From: Granulicella cerasi | Lineage (GTDB): Bacteria > Acidobacteriota > Terriglobia > Terriglobales > Acidobacteriaceae | Direction: 5' to 3' | DNA: 64,000 bases | Assembly: GCF_025685575.1 (NCBI RefSeq) | Contig: NZ_JAGSYD010000002.1 | Location: 558,001-622,000, forward strand | Shown: one piece after another, positions 14,261 to 30,720 of the stretch | Layout of the letters: each line of letters starts with the position of its first letter | Numbering within the stretch: position 1 is the first letter of the stretch | Program-made: the position numbers and the translations under genes | The notes under the pieces: generated by a model | Databases searched by the model: none | The model's input: only the letters and a program-made list of their open reading frames with translations | What the model was told of the DNA's origin: nothing

Positions 14261-14283
14261 GGCTTGACGCCGACGCGCCGGGC

Positions 14284-14995: not shown

Positions 14996-15279
14996 AGACG
15001 TTAGCGAGATTGCGGTCACAACACCTAACGCGAACGTCCATTGCAGCCCGCTGAGTGTGAGACTGATGCAAAGAGGCGAACTTGTGATATCCCCGACGCA
15101 GGGCACGAGGCCGGTGTTGTTTTAGCGTGTTGCATCGTTTCAGCAAATCGTCGATCTTCGTAACAATGCTCGGCTCTGATAGCCTCGCGATATAAAACAG
15201 GTATCCGTGACCTGCGCCCTGTTCACTCGATGTCCAATGGTGTACCTCCGTGTTGCGATCACAAGGAGAATCTCTTTCT

Positions 15280-16833
15280 GTGTACACACAGACAACAACC
15301 GAGGAAATCATCGCGCGGATCGAACAGGTACGTTCGTTTGTACGCGAACAGCGTCTATCGAGTGCCAGCGAGCAGTGGATGCGGAACGAACAGAAGCTCA
15401 AAGATCTCATTAGTAATCTTCGCCGAACCGATGGACGCGCAATGGTTCAGATGATGGATGAACTGGGATCCATTATGCCTCTCACGAAGGACGGCGTCTA
15501 TCGTCTATTCGGCTATGATCTTGACTCCTTGCGCGACGTGGATGACGCCATCAATGGTGATAGGACCCACGTGATCGAGTCCTACGTGTTCCAACGTGAT
15601 CAACCTGTCGAACTGCCGCTAGTGCTTGCATCGGCTGAGGCATTCGAGAAGAATGCAATGCTCGACAAGCTTGTATTGCGTTGGCAACGCAACATTCCGA
15701 TTCGATCACTAGATCGATCTGGCTGGCGCCACGTTGGAGCGTTCTACGTGCGTGTGGGGAGAGAAGACAGTTTAGGCTCGAGCCTTCCTCCTGGCTCGAC
15801 CGCTCTCGTGGAGCCGACGACCGAGCAAGAGCGACTGCGGCCAAATCCTCGAGCCATCTATCTGCTCCAGTTCGCTAACGGTTACCGCTTTAGCCGATGT
15901 GTCGCAACGCATGGACGTCTTCAGCTCCTAGGAGACAACCATCCCTATCGTGGGCCGGAAATATTCTCCTACCCAAGCGGAGTTCGCATCGCTGGCCGCG
16001 TTCGCAGTTACGCGGTCGCACTCCCGACGCAAAAGACGGATTCGCCTCGTGGCCTATGGACCTATCAAGGAACAGCAGATCTGATTCTGCCGTGGGAACA
16101 TGCGACCCGTTGGAGTTTACTGTCAACGAAACATCGAAGGTTCGTGCGTGATCGTAAGACGGAAAAACGAATCCAAGAAGCGCTGGCCCAGCAGCTACGA
16201 GGATCGCTAAGTGATCGAAGCCGCCGACGATATCGACGTCCGACCGATTCACAGCCTCATGTGGATGGGCTCATCCAGCTCTCGCTCGAAAGCTTAGCTC
16301 GATTCAGTGACTTGTTGCGTCTCGGGGCTTCTGGCCTCCGCGATGCTGGCCGCCTATCTCTGGAGCAATTACTAGCGGCATCAACAGCCGCAGAAATGCC
16401 TGCATCCCGAACGCGGGCTCAGATGCCGGAGCCTGCCGAGGTTTGGCATGAACGCCAGCGAGAGATGCTTGAGTATGGATCACTGTTCGCCTTGAAATTC
16501 CCTCGTCCAAGCGAGCTCCAAAAAGATGTCATGCGCGTGAGCCATCTTCACGCCGCTGACACTCTCCCCAACCCGATTCGACCAGGATCGTGGTTAGCCT
16601 TAGAGCCCACTCCGACCAATGTCATTCAGCTCTTGGATTCCAAGTATCGCGCTTCCGCTGAGCAAACCTACGTACTCGAACAGAGCAAGGGGCTGATTTG
16701 CGGCAACCTACAGAATCGAAACGATAGCCTGTGGTTGAGGCAAGGCTCTCATCGCGAGGCGCATGAGGTACAAATCGAGCCAAACAAGTTCGGTGCGCTC
16801 CGACGTGTCTGTGGAGCCGTCATACCGGCCTGA
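15280..16833 (+). CDS. Large protein with two LexA/S24-like folds, possible regulator
   Basis: A 517-residue protein starting at GTG 15280, placed 11 bp after AAGGAG (15263-15268); a GTG at 15250 is possible but lacks a ribosome site. The N-terminus (1-135) is helical. Residues 150-250 look like an S24/LexA autopeptidase fold: an S-L pair in REDSLGSSLPPGS (Ser about 164), IYLLQFANGYRFSRC, LQLLGDN-x-PY and VRIAGRV. The position of the catalytic Lys holds Ser/Arg, so self-cleavage is unlikely. The last 110 residues (RPGSWLALEP, TYVLEQSKGL, ALRRVCGAVI) seem to repeat the same fold. It lies 141 bp before the lasso operon on the same strand. Regulator is my inference; no classic DNA-binding motif is obvious. 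Confidence 0.55.
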   Translation: MYTQTTTEEIIARIEQVRSFVREQRLSSASEQWMRNEQKLKDLISNLRRTDGRAMVQMMDELGSIMPLTKDGVYRLFGYDLDSLRDVDDAINGDRTHVIESYVFQRDQPVELPLVLASAEAFEKNAMLDKLVLRWQRNIPIRSLDRSGWRHVGAFYVRVGREDSLGSSLPPGSTALVEPTTEQERLRPNPRAIYLLQFANGYRFSRCVATHGRLQLLGDNHPYRGPEIFSYPSGVRIAGRVRSYAVALPTQKTDSPRGLWTYQGTADLILPWEHATRWSLLSTKHRRFVRDRKTEKRIQEALAQQLRGSLSDRSRRRYRRPTDSQPHVDGLIQLSLESLARFSDLLRLGASGLRDAGRLSLEQLLAASTAAEMPASRTRAQMPEPAEVWHERQREMLEYGSLFALKFPRPSELQKDVMRVSHLHAADTLPNPIRPGSWLALEPTPTNVIQLLDSKYRASAEQTYVLEQSKGLICGNLQNRNDSLWLRQGSHREAHEVQIEPNKFGALRRVCGAVIPA

Positions 16834-16974
16834 AGCTTTGCAAATGACGCGCCGGTTAGAGGAAGAGTAACTTTGGCCATCTGCGCACTTTGACGTTGTG
16901 ATCCCCTACAACTTGACTCATGCTCTCTTCACGCAGCGGTTCGAGATGTCACCGAATCCGGCGGTCGAGGTAGC

Positions 16975-17232
16975 ATGCCCCTCCATCTTCCCCATCTTCG
17001 CAGCGTAATCAACTCCGATGGCGCTGCCATCTTCGACGCTGAGCAAGGCACACTTACGACGCTCAACGCGACGGGCGCGATGCTTTGGCGCGGAATAGAA
17101 CAAGGACACAGCAAAGAACAACTGCTGCAGTCCCTTGCCGATGCCACACAACTTCCCGAAGAGCAACTGCGCCTCGATATCGAAGAGTTTCTCGAACAGC
17201 TCACAGCGCAACACTTGATCACGAGCGAGTGA
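16975..17232 (+). CDS. PqqD-like RiPP recognition element protein (lasso B1)
   Basis: An 85-residue stand-alone PqqD-family protein. It shows the winged-helix RRE pattern: a beta-rich start with GAAIFDAEQGTLTTLNATGA, then MLWRGIEQGHSKEQLLQSL and DIEEFLEQLTAQHLI. In lasso loci this protein (B1) binds the leader peptide and presents it to the B2 peptidase and the cyclase. It is the first gene of the plus-strand operon, and the next gene follows 14 bp later. The ATG has CGAGGTAGC upstream. The presence of B2 and C downstream makes the B1 role nearly certain. Confidence 0.92.
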   Translation: MPLHLPHLRSVINSDGAAIFDAEQGTLTTLNATGAMLWRGIEQGHSKEQLLQSLADATQLPEEQLRLDIEEFLEQLTAQHLITSE

Positions 17233-17246
17233 TAGGAGCGAGTCTC

Positions 17247-18560
17247 ATGATCGGTCCAGCAAAAAAGGATTGCGTGCTCTATCGGGTTGTTGTGGTTTGC
17301 GCTCATTCGCGAGAGCTGATTCGCAGAACGGATGGCCGGCTCCAGGTCCTACACGTTTCCATCCCTTTCGGACATCGTCCGGCCCAAGCATTGTGCGCAG
17401 CGATGAAGAATCTCTTTCAGATAGAGGCACTGATGGTAGATCTGCTCTCCGAAGAGGACGCGCTTGAGCCGTGCGTGTTGATGGAGACACTCATCGGCTC
17501 CCATTCGATCGGCAATGGCTCTGGCCTGACTTCAAATCTCTGCTGCGCTGATCTCAGCGATAGCGAGATGCAACGGCTTACTGCACTTCTCAATGATGAG
17601 AATGCGTGTTCTGTGTCGAGCATCGGCTGGACGGAACGCGCACGAAATTGGATTGCGGAGTCGGCTGGCTACGGGGTGGAAAGGATCAAATCGATCCAGC
17701 AACTCAACGCCGGTAAAGGATTCGCGCTGCTTTCCTTTATTACAGACGATGAGAGGCGCTTTTGGCTCAAAGCCACGGGTTCGCCGAACCAGAAAGAGTT
17801 CGCCATCACCCGACTTCTCGCGGAGAGAGCTCCTGATGCGTTGCCACTTCTACTAGATACACGATCTGCGTGGAATGCGTGGATAATGGAAGACGCGGGG
17901 CAGTCTCTCTGCTCCGACCCACGACAGACCACAGCGTTACGCGCAACTCGTTGCTTTGTTTCCTTGCAAGCGAGGCTCGTTGGCAGTGCGGATTCCCTCT
18001 TCGAAGCAGGGGCCATCGACTTGCGAGTTGAGCACCTGATGTTCTCGATTGAACGGGTAGTCGACTACCTCCTCTACTCAATGCCACGACAGACATCGAC
18101 CAACTCGATGCCGCTGACCAGCTCGCGCGTGAAGGAGCTTGGCGCCATCCTTCACAGTGCATGTGAGGAGCTTGCGGCGTTGAACCTGCCGGACACAGTG
18201 CTTCACAACGATCTCCATTGCGACAATTTTCTCGTCAACTCAGATCGTTGCTGCGTGACGGATTGGTGCGTCACGGGAGTGGGTATGCCTTTCCTCTGCT
18301 GCGATGATTTATCGCGTGCGACGAACCATCCGGTCGATTCAACACAAGCTTGCTATGCAGAGATGTGGGGCGGGAAGACTACCCAGACTGGTTTGCGCCT
18401 CGGATCATTGCTGTCGCCTTACGCCAAGATTCTCGCTCACGGTCGATGGATTGGCGATCACGCTAGACAGCCGGCATGGTTCGAAACCTACGCACGAACC
18501 ATGGCACGCCAGTTGGATCGCGCCGCACAAAATGCCGCGGAGTCCGGAGGCTTCCAGTGA
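17247..18560 (+). CDS. APH-like phosphotransferase in the lasso operon
   Basis: A 437-residue protein starting at ATG 17247, just after AGGAGCG and 14 bp from the B1 stop. Residues 150-430 have the aminoglycoside-phosphotransferase/protein-kinase-like fold: ATP-binding Lys in FWLKA (175), the helix Glu in KEFAITRLL (184), the hinge AWIMEDAG, the catalytic loop HNDLHCDN (320-327), and the metal-binding Asp in VTDW (339). The first 120 residues form an extra domain I cannot name. All key residues are present, so it is probably active. Known lasso kinases (HPr-kinase-like, as in paeninodin) belong to another fold. The substrate could be Thr38 or Ser39 of the precursor, which is my inference. Confidence 0.78.
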   Translation: MIGPAKKDCVLYRVVVVCAHSRELIRRTDGRLQVLHVSIPFGHRPAQALCAAMKNLFQIEALMVDLLSEEDALEPCVLMETLIGSHSIGNGSGLTSNLCCADLSDSEMQRLTALLNDENACSVSSIGWTERARNWIAESAGYGVERIKSIQQLNAGKGFALLSFITDDERRFWLKATGSPNQKEFAITRLLAERAPDALPLLLDTRSAWNAWIMEDAGQSLCSDPRQTTALRATRCFVSLQARLVGSADSLFEAGAIDLRVEHLMFSIERVVDYLLYSMPRQTSTNSMPLTSSRVKELGAILHSACEELAALNLPDTVLHNDLHCDNFLVNSDRCCVTDWCVTGVGMPFLCCDDLSRATNHPVDSTQACYAEMWGGKTTQTGLRLGSLLSPYAKILAHGRWIGDHARQPAWFETYARTMARQLDRAAQNAAESGGFQ

Positions 18561-20569
18561 TCGAAGATGGTATTGAAGAAATGCTCCATGGGGTCGCTGT
18601 AAAGGATCCGTATCAGTGGCTTGAAGACCGGAACTCCACCGAGACACAAGCGTGGATCGACCAACAACAACTGCCCCTCGCGGACTACTTCCGCCAGATC
18701 GGAGTGCCCGAGACGATTACGCTCCGTGTTTCACAAGAACTCGGAAACGTCATGATCGATCAGGTCGTTCGTTGCGGCGACCAATACATCTATCGCAAGC
18801 GGTTTCGTGCCGGAGAGCATCGCTGCCTCTGCATCAGCGATGCCTCGGGTGACAACGAAAAGATCCTCGTCGACCCGCAAACGCTTGGTCCCTACCAGTC
18901 CGTGAGCCTCTATCGCGTATCCTCCGACGGGCGTTTTGTGGCCTATGAGGTCATTCAAGGCGGAAGCGACAAGCGCACCGTCCGCGTCATCAATCTGCTC
19001 GATGGAGATCAGAACCTAGCCACCATTGACCTGGGGTATCCTCGTGGACTTGCGTTCACAGCGGAGGGGTTTTTCTTCAGCCAAGAGACCACCGCTTCCA
19101 GCGATGTTTATCGTATATGCCATCGGCGTTTCGATGCGCCCGGGGAAGATCGAACGGTCTTTGAGATCCCAAGATCTGAGTGCAGCAGGATCCTCCTGCT
19201 CTCCGACGATCATCGTCTGGGTGTGATGGTGATCCGGTTTCATGACGGAGAGTCGTACATAGATCTATGGGTAGCGACGATCGACGCCCAACCGAAGTGG
19301 TCTCTCCTCGCCCATGCGCGAAAGGTTCCTTTCTCACCAATCCTCGCCAATGGGCAAATCTACGCGGTAGTCGGCGATGGAGTGGCCTGCACTCGAGTGG
19401 TCAGCTTGTCGGAGAACGGAAGCGAGTTGAACACCATCGTCCCATCGTTAGACTCCTCACTCAACCGAGTGACGATCACAACGCAGGGCATATTCGTCGG
19501 ATCAAGCTACGGATTGGATAGCATTTTCGAAGGCTGGTCCTTTGATGGTCACCGCACAACAGTGCTTCGGTTTCCGAACGCGACGCTGCTTCTGCTATCC
19601 AGTTTTTGTGCAGCACCATCGACACTTCTCTTTAGCCTCGAATCCTTTGAGTCAGCCTCACTCGTGTATGAGTATTCGAATGGGCAAAGTGTGCTGGTTC
19701 CGAATCAGCGCGTAACGGACGAGGAACCGAGTGCGTTGTGGACTGTGAAGCAGGACAGCGTGGCGTCTCGCGACGGCACCTCTTTCGCTGTATCGGTGAT
19801 CTCCAAACGAGACGCCAATCTTTCTCAAAGAACTCCAGCCATCATGACTAGCTACGGGGGATTCGGAAGATCGATGACACCGATGTACTCGGTGTTCGTG
19901 AAACTGCTGGTCGAGATGGGAGCCGTCTTCGTGATTCCTCACATTCGTGGCGGTGGAGAAGAAGGCGCAGCATGGCATGAAGCAGGTCGAGGGACCAAAC
20001 GCCAAAACACCTTTGATGATTTCCTCTGCGCGGCAGAGTGGCTTCGCAACGAAAGGATCTGTGATCCCAACCGGCTTGCCATCTTTGGAGGCTCGAACTC
20101 CGGGCTGCTGGTTGCTGCCGCGATGACACAGCGTCCTGACCTCTTCTGCGCTGTGCTCTGCATCGCTCCCTTACTGGATATGGTTCGGTACGAGCGCTTC
20201 GACCGCGCTGCGAACTGGCGAAGCGAATACGGAACCATCGACATCGCAGAGGAGTTCCACGCCCTCCACGCCTACTCTCCCTATCATCGTGTGTCCGCCA
20301 CCCAGAATTATCCGGCGTGCCTGTTCGTAACGGGTGACAGGGATGATCGCTGTAATCCAGCACACGTACGAAAAATGGCCGCGCTGATGCAAGGCCGTAA
20401 GTGTCAATCGAATCCTGTCCTTGTGGACTACAGCCTTGAGCGAGGCCATGCAGGTTCCCTTCCGCTCTCCGTCAAAGTCGATGCCCTAACCCGGCGCATT
20501 GCCTTCCTGTGTCACGAGCTTGGAATCGACATGCTGCGAGGAGGATCCGATGAAACGCTACGCGCTTGA
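18557..20569 (+). CDS. Cytoplasmic prolyl oligopeptidase (S9A) within the lasso operon
   Basis: The start is GTG 18557, overlapping the kinase stop (GTGA), giving 670 residues, the normal size of S9A prolyl oligopeptidases. The N-terminus has the family motif DPYQWLEDRNS, followed by a beta-propeller and the alpha/beta-hydrolase domain. The triad is present: Ser in GGSNSG (about 514), Asp in GDRDDR (about 595) and His in RGHAG (about 630). The conserved RGGGEEG and YGGFG are also there. There is no signal peptide. Translational coupling places it in lasso maturation or turnover. It may trim the precursor after a proline (Pro33 or Pro35), or act as a cytoplasmic immunity hydrolase. Standard lasso operons lack such a gene. 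Confidence 0.85.
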   Translation: MIEDGIEEMLHGVAVKDPYQWLEDRNSTETQAWIDQQQLPLADYFRQIGVPETITLRVSQELGNVMIDQVVRCGDQYIYRKRFRAGEHRCLCISDASGDNEKILVDPQTLGPYQSVSLYRVSSDGRFVAYEVIQGGSDKRTVRVINLLDGDQNLATIDLGYPRGLAFTAEGFFFSQETTASSDVYRICHRRFDAPGEDRTVFEIPRSECSRILLLSDDHRLGVMVIRFHDGESYIDLWVATIDAQPKWSLLAHARKVPFSPILANGQIYAVVGDGVACTRVVSLSENGSELNTIVPSLDSSLNRVTITTQGIFVGSSYGLDSIFEGWSFDGHRTTVLRFPNATLLLLSSFCAAPSTLLFSLESFESASLVYEYSNGQSVLVPNQRVTDEEPSALWTVKQDSVASRDGTSFAVSVISKRDANLSQRTPAIMTSYGGFGRSMTPMYSVFVKLLVEMGAVFVIPHIRGGGEEGAAWHEAGRGTKRQNTFDDFLCAAEWLRNERICDPNRLAIFGGSNSGLLVAAAMTQRPDLFCAVLCIAPLLDMVRYERFDRAANWRSEYGTIDIAEEFHALHAYSPYHRVSATQNYPACLFVTGDRDDRCNPAHVRKMAALMQGRKCQSNPVLVDYSLERGHAGSLPLSVKVDALTRRIAFLCHELGIDMLRGGSDETLRA

Positions 20570-20927
20570 AGGTTGGCTGCTCTTGGCCTATATCGAATGG
20601 GTCATGAAGTTCGGGGCATTCAAGGAAATCAAGCAGTTCGTTTGCGAGCAAGAAGTGGCTTCAAGGGAAAAGCGCGACGAAGTGGATGTGCAGAACCTGT
20701 GTCATGCGATGGATCTAGCGTGCGTGTTCTATTTCAAGCCCGTTCTGTGTCTTCAGCGCTCGGCGGCGACAACCGTTTTGCTCAAACGTCACGGGTGGAA
20801 CGCGACGATGGTGATCGGCGCCCAGATTGTCCCCTTTCTATCCCATGCCTGGTGCGAGGTCGCAGGTTCGGTCGTCAACGACAAGCCTTACATGCGCGAG
20901 AAGTATGCCGTGCTTGAAGAGTTCTAA
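20550..20927 (+). CDS. Lasso leader peptidase (B2, transglutaminase-like Cys protease)
   Basis: A 125-residue protein starting at ATG 20550, after GAGGAGG and overlapping the end of the previous gene by 20 bp. It matches the PF13471 transglutaminase-like family of lasso B2 proteins: Cys67 in VLCLQRSAA, His99 in LSHAWCEV and Asp111 in VVNDKP form the Cys-His-Asp triad. B2 removes the leader from the precursor with the help of B1. The length fits stand-alone B2 proteins. It is followed 11 bp later by the cyclase gene. Confidence 0.9.
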   Translation: MKRYALEGWLLLAYIEWVMKFGAFKEIKQFVCEQEVASREKRDEVDVQNLCHAMDLACVFYFKPVLCLQRSAATTVLLKRHGWNATMVIGAQIVPFLSHAWCEVAGSVVNDKPYMREKYAVLEEF

Positions 20928-20938
20928 GGGAGGTTGTG

Positions 20939-22867
20939 ATGAGCCAGATGTTTGGAGTCCTCCAGCCCGGGGGAACTGTTGTCGATAGAAGTCGACTTGT
21001 TGCGATGAGCTACGCGACATCAGGCGCGCCGCCCGATGCCACTCACTTCCATACTGCAGGCCGTTTTGGAGTGGGGACGCAACTTCGGTATGTACATCAG
21101 CGCTCGCTAACAAAGAGTGGCATTTTTGCGGATGCGTTTCATTGCGTGTCGGCGTTCGAAGGTCGACTCGACAACCGCGCCGCGTTATCCCAGGAGCTGG
21201 GCTTCGATGACGCTCAGGCTTCGGACTCAGAGATTGTGGCCAAGGCTTTCCGGCTCTATGGAGAAGAATGCTTCGCACACCTGAAGGGTGATTGGGCAAT
21301 CGCTCTCTGGTCGCAGGATGAAGAAACGCTGTTCTTAGCTCGCGACCATGCCGGAACGAGACCTCTCTACTACCGTCACCAAGGCGGAGAAGTTCTGTGG
21401 GCTTCTTCACTAGCAACAATCTTGGAGGAGTTGCCTACGGCCCGGCCGTCCATTGAATTCGCACGTGCCTATCTCGCGGGACAAAGGATCGGTGACAGAA
21501 CTCCCTTTGAAGGGATCCATGCGGTGCCCTCCGCGTGCGTCGTACGGCTGGCCAGAGGTGGCTGCCTTACAAAGCGCCATTGGACACCTTTGCGAGAAAG
21601 TGAAGCCCGCTACGCCAGCGATGAAGCTTTTGAGGAGCATTTCCTCGACCTCTTCTCCCAAGCCGTATCTCGCCGCGTCGCAGGTGCTGAGTATCCGGTG
21701 ATCGCAGAGTTGAGTGGCGGCATGGACTCCAGCTCCATCGTTTGTATGGCGGACAGAGTGTGCCAGACGAGCGGAGAGGTCGTGGATCCCATCAAGACGA
21801 TCTCCTACTTCGACGATGCAGAACCGAACTGGAACGAAAGGCCGTACTTTACCGCAGTGGAGAAGCAGCGCGGTCAGCCAGGCGTCCATGTTGAGTTCCA
21901 TCTGGATCAAGAGAGATTTGAGTCCCCTTCTTTCGACTTCGGGATAGAGTATTGGCCTGGAACAACCCAAGCGAATGCAAAGCAACGACGCATCGTGGAA
22001 GACTGTCTTAGGAGCGTTGGTGCACGCTCGGTTCTTTCGGGGATTGGCGGAGACGAACTGCTCGGCGGCGTTCCTTACGCGATCCCAGAACTGGCAGATT
22101 ACCTCCGATCCTTTGAGATCTCGAACCTGCGAAACCAAAGCATGAGGTGGTGCCTGGAGAGCAGGCGTCCGTTGCTTGGATTGGCACAGGAGCTGCTTTC
22201 GTTCACCGCGAGAATGTACCTCGGAGGTCCCCGCTCGGCCTCTCATCGGTCACCATGGATCCGCGAAGATAAACCTGCCGTGGAACACGATTGCAGTTTG
22301 TTCACGCCCAGCTTTGCCCAGCGGATGTCGGCGCGCCCGAGCGCCATTGCAAACAGCTTTGCTTGGCAGACGGTGGTCGAGAGCCTCGCCAGCAACTCGG
22401 GACGGTGCAGGCCCGAGTTTGAATACGCTTACCCATATCTGGACAAGGATCTCGTTGAATTTCTCTTAAGTCTGCCGCGAGAGCAGCTGGTTAGATCCGG
22501 CAGACGACGTTCACTGATGAGACGAGCAATGCGTGGCACCGTGCCGGTTGAGATTCTGGAGCGACGTAGAAAGGCCTTCGCGATCCGCGGCCCACTTCGC
22601 TCCATGCAAGAGTCCGCTCCCTGCCTCGCGTCTCTTTTCTGCGATTCCCGATTGGCAGAACTGGGGTTGATCGAACCTGCGATTCTTTCCGACTGTGTGG
22701 CAGAGGTCGTGCAGGGCGCAAACATTCAATGGTGGCCGGCCATCGTCCGAGCCGCCCTCTATGAGATCTGGCTTCGTTCACTATTTCCGACGGAGACGAG
22801 GCTTTCAAAGCAAGCTACCTCTTCCGTCACGGAAAGAAGCCACCATGCTCACGCACCGGCAGATTGA
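20939..22867 (+). CDS. Asparagine-synthetase-like lasso cyclase (C)
   Basis: A 642-residue class B asparagine synthetase homologue starting at ATG 20939, after GGGAGG. The N-terminal amidotransferase-like domain starts MSQMFGVL and so lacks the Cys2 needed to use glutamine, while the rest of that fold (FEGRLDNR, LKGDWAIALW, ARDHAGTRPLYY) is kept. The synthetase domain has the PP-loop SGGMDSS (about 258) and SGIGGDELLGG. Lasso cyclases adenylate an Asp/Glu side chain and join it to the core's N-terminal amine. Loss of Cys2 is usual in such enzymes. B1 and B2 next to it support the assignment. Confidence 0.92.
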   Translation: MSQMFGVLQPGGTVVDRSRLVAMSYATSGAPPDATHFHTAGRFGVGTQLRYVHQRSLTKSGIFADAFHCVSAFEGRLDNRAALSQELGFDDAQASDSEIVAKAFRLYGEECFAHLKGDWAIALWSQDEETLFLARDHAGTRPLYYRHQGGEVLWASSLATILEELPTARPSIEFARAYLAGQRIGDRTPFEGIHAVPSACVVRLARGGCLTKRHWTPLRESEARYASDEAFEEHFLDLFSQAVSRRVAGAEYPVIAELSGGMDSSSIVCMADRVCQTSGEVVDPIKTISYFDDAEPNWNERPYFTAVEKQRGQPGVHVEFHLDQERFESPSFDFGIEYWPGTTQANAKQRRIVEDCLRSVGARSVLSGIGGDELLGGVPYAIPELADYLRSFEISNLRNQSMRWCLESRRPLLGLAQELLSFTARMYLGGPRSASHRSPWIREDKPAVEHDCSLFTPSFAQRMSARPSAIANSFAWQTVVESLASNSGRCRPEFEYAYPYLDKDLVEFLLSLPREQLVRSGRRRSLMRRAMRGTVPVEILERRRKAFAIRGPLRSMQESAPCLASLFCDSRLAELGLIEPAILSDCVAEVVQGANIQWWPAIVRAALYEIWLRSLFPTETRLSKQATSSVTERSHHAHAPAD

Positions 22868-22895
22868 TCAACTGCTTGTTCGCGGGAATCTGACG

Positions 22896-22903
22896 AAAGG
22901 AGG
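22896..22903 (+). promoter_or_regulatory. Strong ribosome binding site of the precursor gene
   Basis: AAAGGAGG lies 8 bp before the ATG at 22912. It is the best Shine-Dalgarno sequence of the operon and decides the reading frame of the small gene, which a longer frame on the same strand would otherwise hide. High translation of the last gene fits a precursor peptide needed in excess over its enzymes. Confidence 0.8.
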
Positions 22904-22911
22904 AAAGAGCC

Positions 22912-23052
22912 ATGATGAACTATTCCAAACCGTCCGTTCTTGCAACGGTCCCGGCGTTGGTTGCTGTCCAGAGCGATATGGTCAAAGACAATGCGCTGCA
23001 GGACAATCCCCAACCGATCGGTACTTCAGCCGCGTATGAAGCCGATGAGTAG
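22912..23052 (+). CDS. Candidate lasso-type precursor peptide (46 aa)
   Basis: A 46-residue peptide, 44 bp after the cyclase gene. It opens MMNYSKPSVLATVPALV; the Tyr4-x2-Pro7 spacing matches the YxxP motif by which lasso leaders bind B1. It ends IGTSAAYEADE, with four acidic residues and two hydroxyl residues (Thr38, Ser39) near the C-terminus. The core is unclear. The usual rule (Thr two before the core; Gly/Ser/Cys/Ala first; Asp/Glu at 7, 8 or 9) is not met neatly. Options are Ala18 to Asp26 (9-residue ring, long tail), Gln20 to Asp26, or Gly37 to Glu43/Asp45 (ring with almost no tail). The last would give a branched macrolactam, not a threaded lasso. It is last in the operon, whereas precursors are often first. 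Confidence 0.72.
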   Translation: MMNYSKPSVLATVPALVAVQSDMVKDNALQDNPQPIGTSAAYEADE

Positions 23053-23072
23053 TAGCTTCATCTGCCGATAAA

Positions 23073-23102
23073 CACGCCGGGATCCTACGGGGTCCCGGTG
23101 TG
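23073..23102. terminator. Hairpin with UACG tetraloop between the converging lasso operons
   Basis: A 13-bp stem with two G-U wobble pairs (23073-23085 with 23090-23102) closes a TACG loop. In RNA from the plus strand this is a UNCG-type tetraloop and should be very stable. The stop codon of the minus-strand hydrolase (23085-23087) lies in the loop region. The run of T on either side is weak (TTTATC on the minus side). It probably ends transcription from both operons. Confidence 0.6.
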
Positions 23103-25499
23103 CGTTCTGAGTACGGAACTGTGAATCTGATCATCACGCATCCTTTCCCAAGCGAGCTTCTCCTCGGCAGGCACGGTCGGACAGTGCCCCGACTCTGATC
23201 GATCGAGCAGCCAGAAGCAGAACCAGGCCACATTGCCCTCTTGCGAAGACATACGATCCGCAGGATTCTGCAGAATGTGTTGCCCATCTGGAATGAAGAC
23301 GAGATCGACGGGCTTTCGTTGTTGCCGCAGAGATGAGTAAGTCTCCCACTCGCCGAGCAGAGACATCTTTCCGATCGTCTCAATGCGAAGAGGGGTTTTC
23401 ACTTTGCTAAGCTCGAAGCCGACCGCCGTATCCATCCATTGATGAAGTCCCTCTCCGAACGGAGCAGCTCCATTGATCCGGTCGAATTCTCCGGCAAGTC
23501 CTGCGTTGCTCTCGCCGAAGAGCATGTACTGCGTGTAGCTCACGTCCACACCATCCGCTATCGTGGCTGCAGCGAAGAGTCGAGGATCGCGCACGAGAGC
23601 GCCTTCGACGTGCCAGGCCGTTCGGCTGAAGCCGATGATGCCGACCCTTTGTCTATCCACAATGCCGTCCTGAACGAGGTGATTGATCGCCGACTGATAG
23701 CCCAGGAGTTGATCGCCAAGTTCGAGCGGCGTAACGAAGTGGTCTGCATTCGAGCCGAGTTGCAATACGGCGATTCCGGCGCTCGCGAGAGGAAACGCAG
23801 CCATCGCCGTTGGATACCACCCGTCGGCGAGGAAGACATGCGGAGCAAAGCCGTGGGTTTGAATCACAAGCGGATATCTATGCGAAGGATCGTAATCGAC
23901 GGGAAGGACAAGGCCTCCCTCCCACTTTCTCCCGCTCGAGTCGGTCCAACGGTAGACTCGCGCCTGACCGAGCGCGACATGGCGCAGTTGAGGATTGGGA
24001 TCGAGCAAGAGCTTCGCCGAACCGTCCGACGGAGCTTCCGCTTTCTGAACCCATAGCGTCGGTGGTTGATTCATGGCCTGATGAACAGAAACGAAAAGCG
24101 GCTGAGCAGCACTCGCGTGAAATACTTCTGAGACCTTCTGCCATCCCTTGGTGCCATTCACATAACGCTCTTCGATGAGCTCTTTACTCCCGTTGCGAGC
24201 GAACACCAAGAGGATCGAGTTCGTGACGCTACGGTCGTACCGCGCGCTGATGAGGTGCATAGGAATCTGAGCTTCACCATTCACCCTGGATTGAACATCG
24301 CGAGTCAGAGCGAGACACTGTCGGCTACCGGTGGCGATCTCGATCGATAGAGCCACGCATGGGAGATGGCCCCGTCCGGAACGATCTTCGCGAGACAACG
24401 GTACGAACGTATTTGTCACAAGCACATTCGTGCCATCGGGAGACCACATGGCCACGGCCTTGTCGGAGTAGCCGAACCCATTCGCGGAAGGCGCATCCAA
24501 CAGTGGGCGACTCCGCCCGGAACGTAGATCGACAATGGAATAAGCCCGCGTCCGCCAATAGTTGAACGATGAAGTTTGCTTTGCATCGCCCTCTCTGAAG
24601 CGCAGATGCTCAAACATCGGGAGCGGATCGTAGTCCTTCCATGAAGAAGGGATCGATGACACGGGCGCAAGCCATACCGCGTGCCGGCTGTCTGGTGAGA
24701 TTGCGAGCGTACGCGCACTCAAGTTATCGGCGCTGGGACCACCTAGACGATTCGCGTCGGCGATAAGCTTGGGCGCAGAGCGACCATCCGCCTTCCATAA
24801 CGAATCGCGGCGAGGACGCATTCCATTCTCAAGCTGTGGAAACAAGAGTTGCTGCAGCGGAATGCCTGTGACGACTCGGCTTGATCCATAGAGCGGAACG
24901 CCGTTCAGTTCACTTGTCGAACGGGCGACCTCATCAATCCTTTCGCCGAAAAAGTAAACTTCATGATGCGAGCCAAGCTCAAAACTTCGTACATCTACAC
25001 CCTTGGGGTTCATCGCGCGGGGTGCCGGATCTTGCAGCCCCACTCGATAGAGCGTTCGCACGCCGCTCGCGTCGGACCCCAAGAAATACACCGTGCGAGA
25101 ATCTGGAGACCAGCGTAGCGCTGCGATCACAGCGGCATAGGGTCTATCGACAAGGAGTCGATGCGTCCCTCGGATCGTCGCAAGATGCTGCGGCCTTGGA
25201 GGCTGCGCGACCGCAGACGAAGTCAAATACCTCGTGACCTCCGCCACGTCATAGACAAGAAGATCCGATTCGATCTGACTGGTAGCTACTATTCCTCGTG
25301 TGGTGACGACCAAGAACTTCGAACCGTCTGGGGAGAAATTGACCTCAGGATGTTGAACAACTTGGGCCGGATCGCTGATCGTAACCATCTCGATGGAATC
25401 GCGGACAGTGAAGCGATGCTTCTGTGCATTCAAAGACTGAGCACACAGAAACAGGAACGCGAGCGTGTTCATGCCACACATGCGAGAGTGCAGTCTCAT
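23085..25499 (-). CDS. Exported S9-family hydrolase, AtxE2-type lasso isopeptidase candidate
   Basis: An 804-residue protein with an N-terminal signal sequence (MNTLAFLFLCAQSLNAQ; starts at M1 or M10), a beta-propeller (for example LRWSPDSRTVYFLGSDASG) and a C-terminal alpha/beta-hydrolase. The nucleophile lies in GIIGFSRTAWHV (about 625) and the His in IPDGQHILQNP (about 741), near KPVDLVF. This layout fits the S9 group containing AtxE2, which opens the isopeptide bond of astexin-type lassos; substrate assignment rests on context. It is the last gene of the sigma/anti-sigma/receptor operon and converges on the biosynthetic operon. The signal peptide suggests it works in the periplasm on peptide taken up by the receptor. 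Confidence 0.75.
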   Translation of the reverse strand: MRLHSRMCGMNTLAFLFLCAQSLNAQKHRFTVRDSIEMVTISDPAQVVQHPEVNFSPDGSKFLVVTTRGIVATSQIESDLLVYDVAEVTRYLTSSAVAQPPRPQHLATIRGTHRLLVDRPYAAVIAALRWSPDSRTVYFLGSDASGVRTLYRVGLQDPAPRAMNPKGVDVRSFELGSHHEVYFFGERIDEVARSTSELNGVPLYGSSRVVTGIPLQQLLFPQLENGMRPRRDSLWKADGRSAPKLIADANRLGGPSADNLSARTLAISPDSRHAVWLAPVSSIPSSWKDYDPLPMFEHLRFREGDAKQTSSFNYWRTRAYSIVDLRSGRSRPLLDAPSANGFGYSDKAVAMWSPDGTNVLVTNTFVPLSREDRSGRGHLPCVALSIEIATGSRQCLALTRDVQSRVNGEAQIPMHLISARYDRSVTNSILLVFARNGSKELIEERYVNGTKGWQKVSEVFHASAAQPLFVSVHQAMNQPPTLWVQKAEAPSDGSAKLLLDPNPQLRHVALGQARVYRWTDSSGRKWEGGLVLPVDYDPSHRYPLVIQTHGFAPHVFLADGWYPTAMAAFPLASAGIAVLQLGSNADHFVTPLELGDQLLGYQSAINHLVQDGIVDRQRVGIIGFSRTAWHVEGALVRDPRLFAAATIADGVDVSYTQYMLFGESNAGLAGEFDRINGAAPFGEGLHQWMDTAVGFELSKVKTPLRIETIGKMSLLGEWETYSSLRQQRKPVDLVFIPDGQHILQNPADRMSSQEGNVAWFCFWLLDRSESGHCPTVPAEEKLAWERMRDDQIHSSVLRTHTGTP

Positions 25500-25538
25500 G
25501 GTGTCTCCGAAGATGTCTAGGGTGATCGGTGCGCTTGC

Positions 25539-28500
25539 CTAGAAGCTCGCTCGGAGGGAGAACTGCATGGAACGCGGTCCTCCAGATTGGTATTGCGCGC
25601 TCAGCGTTCCGAGGCTCTGATTCAGCATCTTTGTGGCCTGACCGAATTGAGCACTCGAAAGCGTGGGGTTCACATAGCCAAAGTTCGGATGGTTGAAGAG
25701 GTTGAAGGTCTCTGCTCGAAACTGGAGATGAACATCACCAACGATGTGGAAGTTGCGTCGAACGGCTAGGTTCACTTGTTCAAGTCCAAATCCACGAATG
25801 GAGTTGCGGGGAGCATTTCCCATTGCGGCGCCCACAGGCAGGCTGAAGGCCGCGGGGTTGATGACCTTCCCACCCGCATAGGTGGAGCTGTAGAGGTAGA
25901 GCGGCTTGGTGGGATCGATGTTCACACCCGTGTAGTAGATCGCACCGGTGGCATCCGTTTGTGAGCTTCCATTCAGCGTGATCGGGAAGGCGGTACGAGC
26001 CATGAACCGTCCATCGACGCCCCAGTCACTAACGATTGGGCGAAGAAGCCCCTTACCGGCAGAAGGAATATCCCAGCTCAAGCCACCACTCAGATTGTTG
26101 CGCACGTCGAAGTCAGAGTTTCCCCGCACCACGGGATAGGTCGTGCTGTTGGAACCGAAGTCGATGGAGTGAGCCCACGTGTAGGAAACGAGGACGTGCA
26201 GTCCGTGGCTGATGCTGCGTTGGAATTGAGCTTGGAGCGATTGGAAGTTCGATGTGATACCCGATGGCGTGAAGTAGATTGAGCCGAACAACGGATTGCG
26301 TGAGCTTACGTTGATGAGTTGGCTCTGCAAGAGGCGGCGACCACTCGCCCCAACATACGTGAGCGTGAACGATTGATTGCGTCCAAGCGCTTGCTGCAGG
26401 CTCACGTTCCATTGCAGCGTATACGGCAACTGCAGATGCTGCGGATAGGCGTACAGACTCGCGCTCGTGTAGGGAGCTTCGGTCGAGATCGGAAAGGAGA
26501 GTTGGGCTGCGGTGATTGGAAGAGCCGCCTTCGTTAGTGTGGACTGCGCGAGGAATCCGAGGCCCGTCACGCCGAGAGCAGCAACCTGGTTATCGGTGTC
26601 GAAGAAGACGCCTGCACCGGCTCGCAGAACGGTCGTATCTTTCCCATCGGTTCCATGAGGAGTCCACGCAAAACCAAGACGTGGAGCGAAGTTGTACCAC
26701 GAGGTCTTCCAGAGCGGTGTGCCCGCAGGTGCCACGGTCAAAGTCGAGGGCTGCGAGATGTCCCCCGCAAGTGTGTAGAGCGGATTCCCGTTGCTCGATG
26801 TAGGAGGAGGATTCACCTCCCATCGAAGACCTCCAGACAAACTCCATCGTGGTGAAAGGCGCCACTCATCTTCAACGAATGCGGCGGCCTCATGGAAGAG
26901 CAGTGAGCTCTGGTTACGCTTAATGAGGAAGGTTAAGTCCGAAGAGTTGTTGAGCAGCGATGCGGCTGAAAGGTATTCGGCCTGGATGACCGGTGACACG
27001 GCCGTAGTCGGCGACTCGATGCGACGGAAGTCAAATCCGTATCGGACAAAATGGTGTCCGCGCACCATGCTGAACGTATCAACGATATTCCACTGTCGGC
27101 TCCGATTCGCTGCTGAATTGTAAGAACCTAGACTACTGGTACCAATGCCCGAGATGGAGATAAAAACGAATGGCTCCATCGTGGCACTCGTGCTCTGAGC
27201 CATCGCCGATCCAAGATCAATAGGAGTTGCTCCTCCGAAACTGTCGAGTGCTTGGGAGCTGACCGAGTCCGCCTGAGCATAGCCAAGGCGGAAGTCATTC
27301 GTAAGGGCATCAGTGATCTGCGTACTCAGACCGAACGTATACGTTCCTGTATTCACGCTCAGAGTGTTGAGTGCGGAAAGAGTTCGGCTTGACGTAGAGC
27401 TGGGAGTGTTACCCCACCGGAAGAAGGCAGAGACACGACGATTGAATTGATGGTCAAGCCGAGCACTCGTCGAATCGATGCGGCTGGGGACAGCATACGT
27501 TTGGATGAACTGTGCCAAGCTCGGCGCTGATGCGCTTCCGTAGTCAGTGGCACCCGCGGTGGGTTGAGGAAAGGCGTTCAAGATAGGCTGCATCACTGAG
27601 CTCGCTTGAGCTCCCATGAAACTGTCGGGGACATATTGAATCGTCGCGGCTTGAGGTTGCGTCAGACGCAGTCCTTCGTAGGCGACGAAGAAGAAGGAGC
27701 GATCTCGTCCGTCATACAAGCGCGGGAGAAGGACGCGTCCTCCGAAGGTTCCTCCGAAATCGTTCTGACGCAGAGCTGCAATTCGCACATGATTGTGATC
27801 GTTAAACCAGTCGTTAGCGTCGAAGTAGTTGTTGCGCAGATAGTCATAGACGCTTCCGTGAAATTGATCCGCGCCGCTGCGTGTAGCAAACGTGAACTGT
27901 CCTCCCGGGCTCCGCCCAAACTCCGCAGAATAGGTGGAACTCAAGACACGAAACTCTTGAAGCGCATCGAGTGGGAGAATGCTTTGAGTAGTGCCTAGCG
28001 CGGTAGATCCAGGCAAACCACCGCTCGCACCATTGGAGGAACTACCAGCGGTGTTCCCTGCTCCAATGTTGGCGGAGACACCGTCGACCGTGTAATAGTT
28101 CGACTCGGAACGTTGACCATTCACGCTGAAATCGCCAGTGTGCTGAATACCGGTACCAGCCTGCGCTTGCGGGCTGACCGTAACGACACCCGGCGTCATC
28201 GAGATGAGATCCTGAAAGCTTCTTCCGTTCAGCGGAACGTTCTCAACAAACTTCCTGTCGATCACGGTGGAGACCGAAGCATCCGTTGTGTTCATGGCGG
28301 GCGAGGCTGAATCAATCGTGACGCTTTCCGACGTGGCACCAATTGGAAGCTCGAAGTTGAGCGCCACAGCACTCTCAACGTTCAACACTACATCCGCTCT
28401 AATGATGGATTTGAATCCCGGCTTCGCAACCTGAACGTGATAGTGCCCGGGCGGCAGGATCGGGATCAGGTACATCCCGACGCGATTCGTCTTGGCGTTA

Positions 28501-28658
28501 TAGACAACCCCCGTCGTATCGTTCTTGATCAGAACATCCGCGCCAACGATGAGATTGCCGGACGGATCAGTAACGCCACCGCTGATCGTTGCATTGGTTG
28601 ACTGACTGAACGACAGGCCGGGGAAGATGAAACACAGCAGCAAGACAAGAGATTTCAC
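25539..28658 (-). CDS. Oar-type TonB-dependent receptor with carboxypeptidase-regulatory domain
   Basis: About 1040 residues. GTG 28658 (MKSLVLLLCFIFPGLSFSQ, after GGAGCG) gives a clean signal peptide; the frame is open 13 codons further. After it come a carboxypeptidase-regulatory-like Ig domain (ISGGVTDPSGNLIVGADVLI ... about 20-110), a plug (VPLNGRSFQDLISMTPGVV, FSVNGQRSESNYYTVDGV) and a large outer-membrane beta-barrel ending in a terminal Phe (FSLRASF). Acidobacteria carry many Oar proteins, mostly unassigned. Here it sits between the anti-sigma gene and a lasso-isopeptidase-like gene, the place held by the TonB receptor in astexin loci. I infer that it imports or senses the locus's own peptide. 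The gap to the hydrolase gene is 39 bp. Confidence 0.85.
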   Translation of the reverse strand: MKSLVLLLCFIFPGLSFSQSTNATISGGVTDPSGNLIVGADVLIKNDTTGVVYNAKTNRVGMYLIPILPPGHYHVQVAKPGFKSIIRADVVLNVESAVALNFELPIGATSESVTIDSASPAMNTTDASVSTVIDRKFVENVPLNGRSFQDLISMTPGVVTVSPQAQAGTGIQHTGDFSVNGQRSESNYYTVDGVSANIGAGNTAGSSSNGASGGLPGSTALGTTQSILPLDALQEFRVLSSTYSAEFGRSPGGQFTFATRSGADQFHGSVYDYLRNNYFDANDWFNDHNHVRIAALRQNDFGGTFGGRVLLPRLYDGRDRSFFFVAYEGLRLTQPQAATIQYVPDSFMGAQASSVMQPILNAFPQPTAGATDYGSASAPSLAQFIQTYAVPSRIDSTSARLDHQFNRRVSAFFRWGNTPSSTSSRTLSALNTLSVNTGTYTFGLSTQITDALTNDFRLGYAQADSVSSQALDSFGGATPIDLGSAMAQSTSATMEPFVFISISGIGTSSLGSYNSAANRSRQWNIVDTFSMVRGHHFVRYGFDFRRIESPTTAVSPVIQAEYLSAASLLNNSSDLTFLIKRNQSSLLFHEAAAFVEDEWRLSPRWSLSGGLRWEVNPPPTSSNGNPLYTLAGDISQPSTLTVAPAGTPLWKTSWYNFAPRLGFAWTPHGTDGKDTTVLRAGAGVFFDTDNQVAALGVTGLGFLAQSTLTKAALPITAAQLSFPISTEAPYTSASLYAYPQHLQLPYTLQWNVSLQQALGRNQSFTLTYVGASGRRLLQSQLINVSSRNPLFGSIYFTPSGITSNFQSLQAQFQRSISHGLHVLVSYTWAHSIDFGSNSTTYPVVRGNSDFDVRNNLSGGLSWDIPSAGKGLLRPIVSDWGVDGRFMARTAFPITLNGSSQTDATGAIYYTGVNIDPTKPLYLYSSTYAGGKVINPAAFSLPVGAAMGNAPRNSIRGFGLEQVNLAVRRNFHIVGDVHLQFRAETFNLFNHPNFGYVNPTLSSAQFGQATKMLNQSLGTLSAQYQSGGPRSMQFSLRASF

Positions 28659-28739
28659 GAAAGGTCGCTCCGGAGGTTGGGAGTGTTTTGAATGCACTCC
28701 GTATACGGACGACCTGGGAAAGTTGTATCAATCTTTCTT

Positions 28740-29972
28740 TTACGGATGGTTCGGTTCGATCTGCAAGTAGGCCCGAAGAAGCTGCTTCCCGGTGGGCTTG
28801 TTGCTTCCACCCGATGGTTCCACCGTAACAAAGACCATGTTCAAACGCGACAGACTCTTCGAGTCGTTGCAGCGAAGTACCCAACGCTTATGCCCATCAT
28901 CTTGATAGAAGAGCCCGAGGCTCACGGGATCATGGTCACTTCCACTTCCCCACACTTGGTACGAAACGGCGCGAGAGAGAGAAGGCTGTTTGTCGAGGTC
29001 GAAGCCGTAGAACACCAGCGAACGATCTTGCGTATAGAAGATACGTCCAAAGGGCTTGGCCGTCTTCCCTTTCTCTGTCGTGTCGTAGATGTCGGCGATG
29101 TACAGATTGCGCGAGCCGATAAGGTCTCGGATGTCCTTGTCGTGGGAGAGGAAGTCTTTGTCGAGAGCAAGCATCCGCTCCTTGCTCTCTAAATTCGTGT
29201 TGAGGTCGGCAAGCTCCGCATTCAAGCTGCGGATCTTATCCGTCAATGCGACTATCTGAACGTCCTGCTGCCCAGAAGCTGCGTGCGCCGCCGCGAGCTG
29301 CTCGTGAAGGGTCTGCACGCTTCCCTGTGCCGCGTTCAACTGCACGGTCAGAGCCTGCTTGTCGGACGAGGCCTGGTCGAGTTGTAGCCGGTCGGCGTCG
29401 AGCTGTTTCTGCAGATCTGCCTGTGCCGATCTGGCCGCAAGAGCTGCCTGTTGAAGGTCAGTAAGCTGCTTGCGAAGCTGAGCATTCTCGCTTTCGCTAT
29501 TCTTCGCAGGAACCACTTCTGTGGATACTACCGCTGAGCTGGCAACAGTCGGCCTCGTGATCGTCGTTGCAGATCTGGTCATCGTCGAGCGATCCGCTTG
29601 ATGTTGTATGTAGCTCCTGACGCCATAAGTGGATGCAGTGAGACCGCACGCCGCGATCGTGCCATACAGAAGCCAGTTTCCCTTTGCGCGCGGTTTGGCT
29701 TGCGGAACCGGCACCGTATCCAACTGCGCGGCGAACCTTTTCGCCGCCGCATCGAACTGTTCCTGAGACTCTAGCGGTGCCTGCGCAGCGGCAGCCTGCG
29801 CCATTGCAGGAATGACCTCTTGCGAGACGTGAGCGAACTCCTCAAAGGTCGCACGGCACGAATCGCAGTAGGCCATATGCACCTGCAGCAGCGACCACTC
29901 TTCTTCGGAGAGTTCTCCGGAGTAGAAGAGTGCGCACATCTCTACGAACTCGTCATGAAGTCGCGGGTTCAC
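28740..29972 (-). CDS. Membrane anti-sigma factor with zinc-finger and RskA-like domain
   Basis: A 410-residue protein. The N-terminus has the anti-sigma zinc-finger (HMAYCDSC, about 31-39). A single membrane helix (about 98-118, WLLYGTIAACGLTASTYGV) is followed by a periplasmic coiled coil (about 150-280, heptads rich in Leu, Gln and Ala) and a C-terminal beta domain (RIFYTQDRSLVFYGFDLDKQ ... VSLGLFYQDDGHKRWVL) like the RskA/anti-sigma-K fold. It should hold the sigma factor encoded 45 bp upstream at the membrane until a periplasmic signal releases it. The long coiled coil is unusual for the family. The gene order implies that the Oar receptor or its ligand is the signal. Confidence 0.87.
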   Translation of the reverse strand: MNPRLHDEFVEMCALFYSGELSEEEWSLLQVHMAYCDSCRATFEEFAHVSQEVIPAMAQAAAAQAPLESQEQFDAAAKRFAAQLDTVPVPQAKPRAKGNWLLYGTIAACGLTASTYGVRSYIQHQADRSTMTRSATTITRPTVASSAVVSTEVVPAKNSESENAQLRKQLTDLQQAALAARSAQADLQKQLDADRLQLDQASSDKQALTVQLNAAQGSVQTLHEQLAAAHAASGQQDVQIVALTDKIRSLNAELADLNTNLESKERMLALDKDFLSHDKDIRDLIGSRNLYIADIYDTTEKGKTAKPFGRIFYTQDRSLVFYGFDLDKQPSLSRAVSYQVWGSGSDHDPVSLGLFYQDDGHKRWVLRCNDSKSLSRLNMVFVTVEPSGGSNKPTGKQLLRAYLQIEPNHP

Positions 29973-30017
29973 AGTGTCGACTGCCTCACGGGAAAATTGT
30001 CAGCCCATTCTCTCACC

Positions 30018-30662
30018 CTATCCCCGTTTCTTCATGAAAAGGCTCGATCTTAAACGATCCAGAGCCCGATAGTAGTGATTTCGGACATTCCCGATGCTCT
30101 GAGCATTCCGTTCTGCGATCTCCTTGAAGGAGTATCCCTCGAAGATGTGCAGTTCCAGGGCTTGTTGCTGATCTGACGAGAGCTCTCCGCGCAGACGTTC
30201 CAGAATGGCTTTGCCGTCAATGTGGTCCGTCGAAGGACGAGCGAAAAGAGAGCCAATGCTCTGCTCGTCCAGGTCCTTGGTTCGGTAGTGCTCTCTGGAG
30301 ATCAGAGCCCTCCTTCTATCAATGGCGCGATGATAGGCAACCTGAATAATCCACGACGACGCAGAGCCCTTACTCGGGTCATAGAGGTAGGCTTTCTGGA
30401 AGAGATAAAGAAACGTCTCTTGACGTAGATCGTCGGCCTCCGCGTCATCGCGCAGAATCCGCCACGACACGTTGTATACGGCTCTTCCGTGCCTTCTAAA
30501 TAAGACAGAGAGCGCGTCCTTATCGCGTTTCGCTACCGCCTCAAGCAGAGCTTCGTCAGCGGGTGCATCTGTCTCGCCTTTGATATTGGCGACGTTATCC
30601 AGCTCGGTGGGAAGATCGGCCAACAAGGTGGCAATGAGTGGCAGCGCAGATTCGGAATTCAC
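30018..30662 (-). CDS. ECF-type RNA polymerase sigma factor
   Basis: A 214-residue ECF sigma factor using GTG 30662, which follows GGAGGG; an open frame continues to a TTG at 30710 that lies inside an operator. Region 2 reads LSVLFRRHGRAVYNVSWRIL, then DDLRQETFLYLFQKA, and region 4 reads LELHIFEGYSFKEIAERN followed by a helix with RNHYYRALDRLR. It is first in the minus-strand operon, ahead of its anti-sigma factor, the Oar receptor and the lasso-hydrolase candidate. Two copies of a GCAAC-x4-GTTGC palindrome lie just upstream, between it and a divergent XRE gene. Confidence 0.9.
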   Translation of the reverse strand: MNSESALPLIATLLADLPTELDNVANIKGETDAPADEALLEAVAKRDKDALSVLFRRHGRAVYNVSWRILRDDAEADDLRQETFLYLFQKAYLYDPSKGSASSWIIQVAYHRAIDRRRALISREHYRTKDLDEQSIGSLFARPSTDHIDGKAILERLRGELSSDQQQALELHIFEGYSFKEIAERNAQSIGNVRNHYYRALDRLRSSLFMKKRG

Positions 30663-30706
30663 ACGCCCTCCGATCGTGCCGTGCCCAGCACAGCACTCAC
30701 CATATG

Positions 30707-30720
30707 GCAACGATAGTTGC
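30707..30720. promoter_or_regulatory. XRE-type operator copy 1
   Basis: GCAACGATAGTTGC differs from the other two operator copies by one base in the centre. It lies 45 bp upstream of the preferred sigma-factor start and 66 bp before the divergent XRE gene. Confidence 0.6.

Follow-up and report, generated by a model that had tools for sequence, protein, structure and literature searches.

The open reading frame (ORF) at positions 22912-23052 (forward strand) of the window, the 64,000-nucleotide stretch of Granulicella cerasi DNA analysed here, belongs to a large acidobacterial family of precursor peptides that are encoded downstream of lasso-type cyclase genes. The best explanation for its product, to which we assign a probability of about one half, is a macrolactam in which a lasso-type cyclase has joined the side chains of Lys25 and Asp31, leaving a free N-terminal arm. 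More than 100 precursors carry a lysine at a near-fixed distance from an acidic residue, which suggests a ring closed by the lysine side chain. We tentatively extend this reading to a branch of lasso-type cyclases in soil Acidobacteriota. These enzymes may have relocated the nucleophile from the N-terminus to the side chain of a lysine, giving a lasso-sized ring whose N-terminal arm has one to eight residues, either as a "two-armed" lasso or as a side-chain macrolactam. With the nucleophile on a lysine side chain, the position of the ring would be free of the leader border.

The ORF is real and not a chance reading frame, because a homologue of 44 aa (72% identity over all 46 positions) lies at the same place in a second Granulicella genome (L031) and because such ORFs occur at 66 of 70 loci. 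It encodes a peptide of 46 aa, MMNYSKPSVLATVPALVAVQSDMVKDNALQDNPQPIGTSAAYEADE, begins 44 bp after the cyclase stop codon, and has the purine-rich AGGAGGAAAG upstream of its start. On the forward strand lie genes for a B1 or PqqD-type leader-binding protein (16975-17232; PF05402, E 2.3e-14), a phosphotransferase of APH type that is likely a peptide kinase (17247-18560; PF01636, E 1.1e-5, just above the cut-off), a POP-like oligopeptidase of the S9 family (18557-20569; PF00326/PF02897), the B2 leader peptidase (20550-20927; NF033537) and the asparagine-synthetase-type cyclase C (20936-22867; Pfam Asn_synthase and GATase_7). On the reverse strand are an Atxe2-like isopeptidase (23085-25499; NF033523, E 3e-50), a TonB-dependent outer-membrane receptor (25539-28697; PF25183, PF13620), an RskA-type anti-sigma factor (28740-29972; PF10099) and an ECF-like sigma factor (30018-30710; PF04542, PF08281). 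The lasso gene set is thus present, with B1 (the RRE protein), B2 and C in one cluster. The original prediction called the enzymes standard lasso enzymes, and this holds broadly but approximately. B2 scores 69 bits against a cut-off of 33 and is the one protein of the four lasso-type proteins to pass its NCBIfam cut-off: B1 (39 bits against 70), the cyclase (217 against 525) and the isopeptidase (172 against 400) all fall below theirs. Inspection by eye of the listed ORFs (minimum 25 aa for 6-17 kb, minimum 30 aa for 17-30 kb) found no better precursor elsewhere. Rfam returned nothing at gathering score over 16500-30500.

When 398 genomes of the bacterial family were searched with an alignment of ten cyclases, 58 of them gave matches, at 76 places in all (E 1e-120). 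Outside the window, 69 stretches cover 71 of the 75 places (left out are G399:C30, G426:C6, G433 and G242). With the window included, 66 of 70 loci have one to three small ORFs of the form YxxPx[IVL]...[IV]x downstream of the cyclase. In L106, L107, L108 and L114 the ORF is 1.6-2 kb from the cyclase, behind the kinase gene; in L101, L109, L110 and L124 no family ORF was found downstream of the cyclase, L110 having an atypical candidate. The discovery filters were Ile/Val at -2, a core of 18-36 residues and an acidic-type end. Starting from 111 candidates, we excluded 26 (one in L076 that extended a retained precursor, the atypical ORF of L110, the rest not precursor-like) and two duplicates, which leaves a discovery set of 83 unique cores in 64 loci; two further loci have duplicate cores. 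For the hold-out, a genome contig collection was scanned with the cyclase alignment, which found relatives at 77 loci (a query with a single cyclase found none in that collection). Its filters were Ile/Val(-2) and a core of 16-36 residues, and removal of known cores, nine near-duplicates and one ORF lacking the family tail left 39 new cores from 24 loci. The non-redundant sets comprise 76 discovery and 39 held-out cores, 115 altogether. The neighbouring genes recur across the 70 loci: by tblastn, B2 was found in at least 69, the isopeptidase in 62 (on the opposite strand), the receptor in 61, the APH gene in 56, B1 in 46 and the S9 gene in 42, all lower bounds because the queries were the window's proteins and some stretches end early. 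The window also has a 527-aa ORF at 15250-16833 (forward strand) with no Pfam or NCBIfam match; counting the window, at least 17 of the 70 loci carry it or a homologue, usually on the 5' side of B1.

The leader, M1-Q20 (22912-22971, forward strand), shows the Tyr-x2-Pro recognition pattern that had been noted in it, with Tyr4 at -17, Pro7 at -14, Val9 at -12, Val19 at -2 and Gln20 at -1. We place its border between Gln20 and Ser21 by homology, because the register matches the Ile/Val(-2) leader described by Duan et al. (2023; PMC10368454), for which cleavage by B2 after residue -1 was measured with Bradymonas BsfA. That leader type was reported in Acidobacteriaceae also, and the fixed distance between YxxPxL and Ile/Val(-2) in the window is that of the acidobacterial group in the same paper. 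The predicted core is S21-E46 (26 residues; 22972-23049, forward strand). Within the family, Ile/Val at -2 in 83 of 83 discovery cores is a matter of construction, because this residue filtered the set. Candidates selected by the Y-x-x-D-E tail alone and cut at Tyr+17, with no Ile/Val filter, have Ile/Val at -2 in 70 of 73 cases; the other three, all from L104, have it one residue earlier, and their register was shifted accordingly. Gln occupies position -1 in 55 of 83 cores. The suggestion of an unusual leader border thus proved apt, with Val at -2 in place of Thr.

With this border, the acidic residues of the window's core stand at positions 2, 6, 11, 23, 25 and 26 only. None is at 7-9, where a lasso acceptor is looked for, nor at 10, which agrees with the earlier view that no core fits the usual rule. 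The regularity is found instead relative to lysine. Lys25 (22984-22986, forward strand), the proposed ring nucleophile, has Asp31 (23002-23004, forward strand; core position 11), the proposed acceptor, at +6. D/E follows the first core lysine at +6/+7 in 69 of 76 discovery cores (91%) and 27 of 39 held-out ones; used in the same way as sole anchors in the discovery set, 15 other residues reach at most 39% each at their own best spacing. When any lysine at core 1-8 is admitted the discovery count is 72 of 76, against a mean of 16.3 and a maximum of 28 in 2000 shuffles that keep the first lysine fixed and ignore relatedness among the cores. The position of the acceptor has a standard deviation of 1.45 when measured from residue 1 and of 0.54 when measured from the lysine (75 discovery cores). 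D/E is missing from core 7-10 in 34 of 76 discovery cores, 33 of which have the lysine spacing. The discovery exceptions are L123 and L125, which fit a classical Gly1-Asp8 ring, L105 with +5 and L095 with +8. In L036 the pair is Lys2/Asp8, which fits both ring readings, as it does in L198 outside the family.

In the held-out cores, for which the rule was fixed beforehand, 28 of 39 have D/E at +6/+7 (shuffle mean 8.5, maximum 17). The strict rule fails in the other 11, which counts against the lysine model. Nine of these have +8, and all nine end in DWE or in DWE plus one residue; the other two, from L265, have D8/E8 and fit a classical ring. If +8 is admitted, which was done after the fact, the count becomes 37 of 39 (shuffle mean 12.1, maximum 23). 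Every one of the 115 cores contains a lysine followed by D/E at +5 to +8. The acceptor stands at core 8-17 (standard deviation 1.85), beyond position 10 in 75 of 115 cores, and tracks the position of the lysine (r 0.93, slope 1.2), from which its distance has a standard deviation of 0.73. Cores that end in DWE plus at most one residue come from L090, L092, L126, L222, L225, L234, L241, L243 and L253. Lys+8 is found in 9 of 15 non-redundant cores of this subgroup, and some of its loci have two or more cyclase ORFs or pieces.

Paralogues at loci where the stretches covered showed a single cyclase ORF (L230, L112, L104, L099 and L260) differ in arm length and keep the lysine spacing: Lys8 to Asp15 and Lys4 to Asp10 in L230, Lys3 to Asp10 and Lys5 to Glu12 in L112, Lys6 to Glu12 and Lys5 to Asp11 in L104. 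Across 33 pairs that could be aligned, the tail is the best conserved segment (83% identity), followed by the leader (74%), the arm (56%), the loop (55%) and the inside of the ring (44%), the identity of the lysine itself being given by construction. The conserved pair is Lys25-Asp31, whose spacing is shown and from which a bond between the two may be inferred. The epsilon-amine of Lys25 is favoured as nucleophile because no core lacks a lysine at +5 to +8 before an acidic residue, because the neighbours of that lysine vary freely, and because the spacing ignores the leader border.

As controls, 40 loci were chosen by B2 in the class, nine of them without a cyclase match. Thirty Thr(-2) candidates gave 27 non-redundant control cores, all from other bacterial families. 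D is present at core 8-10 in 26 of the 27, with no D/E elsewhere in 1-16 (the exception is a doubtful ORF of L188), and Lys+6/7 occurs in 5 of 27. The acceptor is at position 10 in four of the 27 (controls L160-L193). Residue 1 is T, S, A, V, K, Q, L, R or G, often T, S, A or V. In the cyclase tree the controls separate from the cyclases of the lysine family (the rows L072 and L098 carry a control label though they are family loci, their cores having been duplicates). The window's cyclase retains SGGMDS, the ATP-site motif, as well as the SGIGGDE motif. Family and controls are set apart at 32 cyclase positions, including Glu374 and Lys546. In an alignment with beta-lactam synthetase, Arg545 and not Lys546 stands opposite Lys443, a residue with a known role. 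The family-specific positions were dropped as evidence of mechanism, since relatedness alone could explain them and it is Arg545 that meets Lys443.

The pathway that we propose would run as follows. B1 would bind the YxxPx[IVL] leader, and B2 would cut after Gln20 to free the 26-residue core. The asparagine-synthetase-type cyclase would then activate the side chain of Asp31 for attack by the epsilon-amine of Lys25, the role that the alpha-amine of residue 1 has in a classical lasso. The result would be a Lys-Asp i+6 side-chain-to-side-chain macrolactam with the free four-residue N-terminal arm SDMV. By hand count, the Lys-Asp i+6 ring has 26 atoms and i+7 with Asp has 29, while classical 8- and 9-residue rings have 25-26 and 28-29. 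Because these sizes are so close, the conserved tail could possibly thread the ring, with Tyr42 as plug. A macrolactam without a lasso fold, one of the options in the original prediction, is also possible. The neighbouring TonB receptor probably imports the product, and the isopeptidase probably opens it. The anti-sigma and ECF-like sigma pair (28740-30710, reverse strand) adjoins the receptor gene, an arrangement that suggests surface signalling by the imported peptide.

The main rival is a classical lasso that has been trimmed. A second peptidase, perhaps the S9 oligopeptidase, would remove the arm and leave Lys25 as the first residue, whose alpha-amine would close a ring of 7, 8 or 9 residues. 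We consider this unlikely. The spans from lysine to acceptor are the classical set of ring sizes, and a lysine trimmed to residue 1 fits them too, which counts against the side-chain reading. An S9 gene was found in 42 loci, as given above, and acceptors stand farther from residue 1 where it occurs (median 11 in 53 cores, 10 in 29 cores without it; Mann-Whitney p 6e-5 with one core per locus). Arms of 2-4 residues, however, are also present where S9 was not found (L033, L032 and L107), and on supported tree branches the association comes down to 3 independent pairs and is not significant, so that the oligopeptidase was dropped as the cause of arm length. The two residues before the lysine are unconserved and thus offer no visible cleavage site. 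In NCBIfam the S9 protein comes closest, though far below the cut-off, to oligopeptidase B, a family that cuts after basic residues and not before them. Trimming also leaves a constant lysine at residue 1 unexplained, since an alpha-amine donor need not be lysine; a side-chain nucleophile would be, because only lysine has a side-chain amine. The second rival is a large-ring lasso, in which the alpha-amine of residue 1 closes an 11-residue ring onto Asp31 and the lysine is a recognition residue for the cyclase only. It keeps to the chemistry of lasso cyclases already known, 67 of 83 cores begin with G, S, A or N, as is typical of lasso cores, and some family members fit 8-9-residue rings. It is nonetheless improbable in our judgement. 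Ring sizes would span 8-17 across the family, and the single cyclase of L230 would have to make alpha-amine rings of 10 and 15 residues, 5 residues apart, while a review describes a significant drop in production when a lasso ring is changed by one residue (2026 review; PMC13352647). D/E at core 7-9, moreover, is barely more frequent than in shuffles (27 of 76 against a mean of 21, range 9-36).

The cores of the original prediction, a ring from Gly37 to Glu43 or Asp45 or from Ala18/Gln20 to Asp26, now appear very improbable. Their ring and tail arithmetic is correct, Gly37-Asp45 spans 9 residues, and the Thr/Ser at Tyr-4 (50 of 73 cores) could pass for the Thr(-2) of a 7-residue core with DE at its end. 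The alignment of small ORFs near homologous cyclases, which had been proposed as the check, nevertheless leads elsewhere. Gly37 is not a family position and Asp26 is Asn in the closest homologue, so that both cores were rejected; the C-terminal Y-x-x-D-E is kept, as a tail, and the conserved ring pair is Lys25-Asp31. A C-terminal core would leave nothing as threading tail, and one of the Thr(-2) type would have Pro (Tyr-2) as its first residue in 24 of 73 cores. Neither proposal explains the Lys-D/E spacing or the Ile/Val(-2) register. That no macrolactam forms at all, the conserved residues serving recognition only, is likewise highly unlikely: the PMC literature covered holds no product for this exact family, but the cyclase retains both of its motifs and an isopeptidase homologue accompanies it in most loci (62 of 70). 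A cofactor-type RiPP was considered as the product because the tail is the most conserved part, and was set aside because it leaves the lysine spacing unexplained.

The acidic end AYEADE (23032-23049, forward strand), which had been singled out as odd, is a family hallmark: Y-x-x-D-E is present in 90 of 115 non-redundant cores. The consensus is [AGS]-Y-x-x-D-E. Tyr is found in 73 of 76 discovery cores, and in these Tyr-1 is A/G/S in all 73, Tyr+3 is D in 65 and Tyr+4 is E in 71. Thr38 (Tyr42 minus 4; 23023-23025, forward strand) is the candidate target of the APH-type kinase, which, to judge from the co-occurrence of the gene with a Ser/Thr in the tail, probably phosphorylates it. All 75 cores accompanied by an APH gene carry Ser/Thr at Tyr-4 or -5, as do 6 of 20 where none was found and 10 of 15 that are undecided (Fisher p 1.9e-12, ignoring relatedness). 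Independent support is thin, because on the tree the APH gene changes only twice, giving two independent pairs. The 20 cores (of 110, from 12 loci) are those in which tblastn with the window's APH protein found no homologue with at least 4.2 kb upstream; the window itself has the gene.

Classical class II (astexin-type) lasso peptides have Thr at -2, a ring of 7-9 residues closed by the alpha-amine, and a variable C-terminus. The locus in the window resembles theirs in having cyclase, protease, isopeptidase and receptor genes and, among the 12 region proteins scanned, no ABC exporter. Graspetides contain Lys-Asp/Glu side-chain lactams made by ATP-grasp ligases. Our model shares that type of bond with them, but none of the ten locus proteins matches an ATP-grasp ligase (E up to 0.1). 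Known lasso kinases other than BsfK are of the HPr-kinase type. BsfK is of that type also (PMC10368454). The precursors described there resemble the present ones in bacterial group, leader motif, register, split B1/B2 and phosphotransferase, and Acidobacteriaceae bacterium TAA 166, named in that paper, corresponds to our L200, L207 and L219. Its experiments, in contrast to the situation in the window, concern BsfA, an inferred Gly1-Asp8 ring and an HPr-kinase-like enzyme, and the word "lysine" is absent from its main text. All Ile/Val(-2) clusters are said there to encode a kinase or phosphotransferase. Here, a search for relatives of the window's APH protein, the one kinase type covered, came up empty in 12 loci.

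The soil-metagenome cluster BGC 482.1 (Negri et al., 2022; PMC9064862) shares one or more PqqD proteins, an APH-family kinase, B2, C and two 141-bp A genes followed by a 2118-bp gene, and from this described gene order it is very probably a member of the family. Its authors assigned the ring to a glycine, giving Leu/Ser at -2. Expression in E. coli failed to yield the peptides they expected (PMC9064862), which counts against the lysine model, though the ring had been placed on glycine. In a review of lasso modifications (PMC9266682), kinases acting on a C-terminal Ser and the conserved, acetylated Lys10 of albusnodin are described, and nothing like a lysine-closed ring. Searches of the open PMC literature, judged by title, opening of the abstract and selected passages, turned up no report of a lysine-closed lasso-type ring; that the papers covered describe no side-chain nucleophile for a lasso-type cyclase counts against the lysine model. 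Should lysine prove to be the nucleophile, ring closure by lasso-type cyclases would not be confined to the chain end, and peptides whose free N-terminus could be labelled or fused would come within reach. Genome mining that requires a ring from residue 1 to D/E at 7-9 would then misassign this acidobacterial family, which may partly explain the undetected product of a cluster like BGC 482.1. Under the rule of Lys followed by D/E at +6 to +8, over a hundred cores become predictable.

Among the 40 loci chosen by B2, two have Ile/Val(-2) candidates without a YxxDE tail: L161 (Lys4, D10) and L198 (Lys2, D8, twice), both with Lys+6. L198 branches next to the family in the cyclase tree, and the two loci are a possible bridge to the classical rings. 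In the window, IS3-like transposase pieces, named by reading of the sequence, lie near the locus at 13361-14595 (reverse strand).
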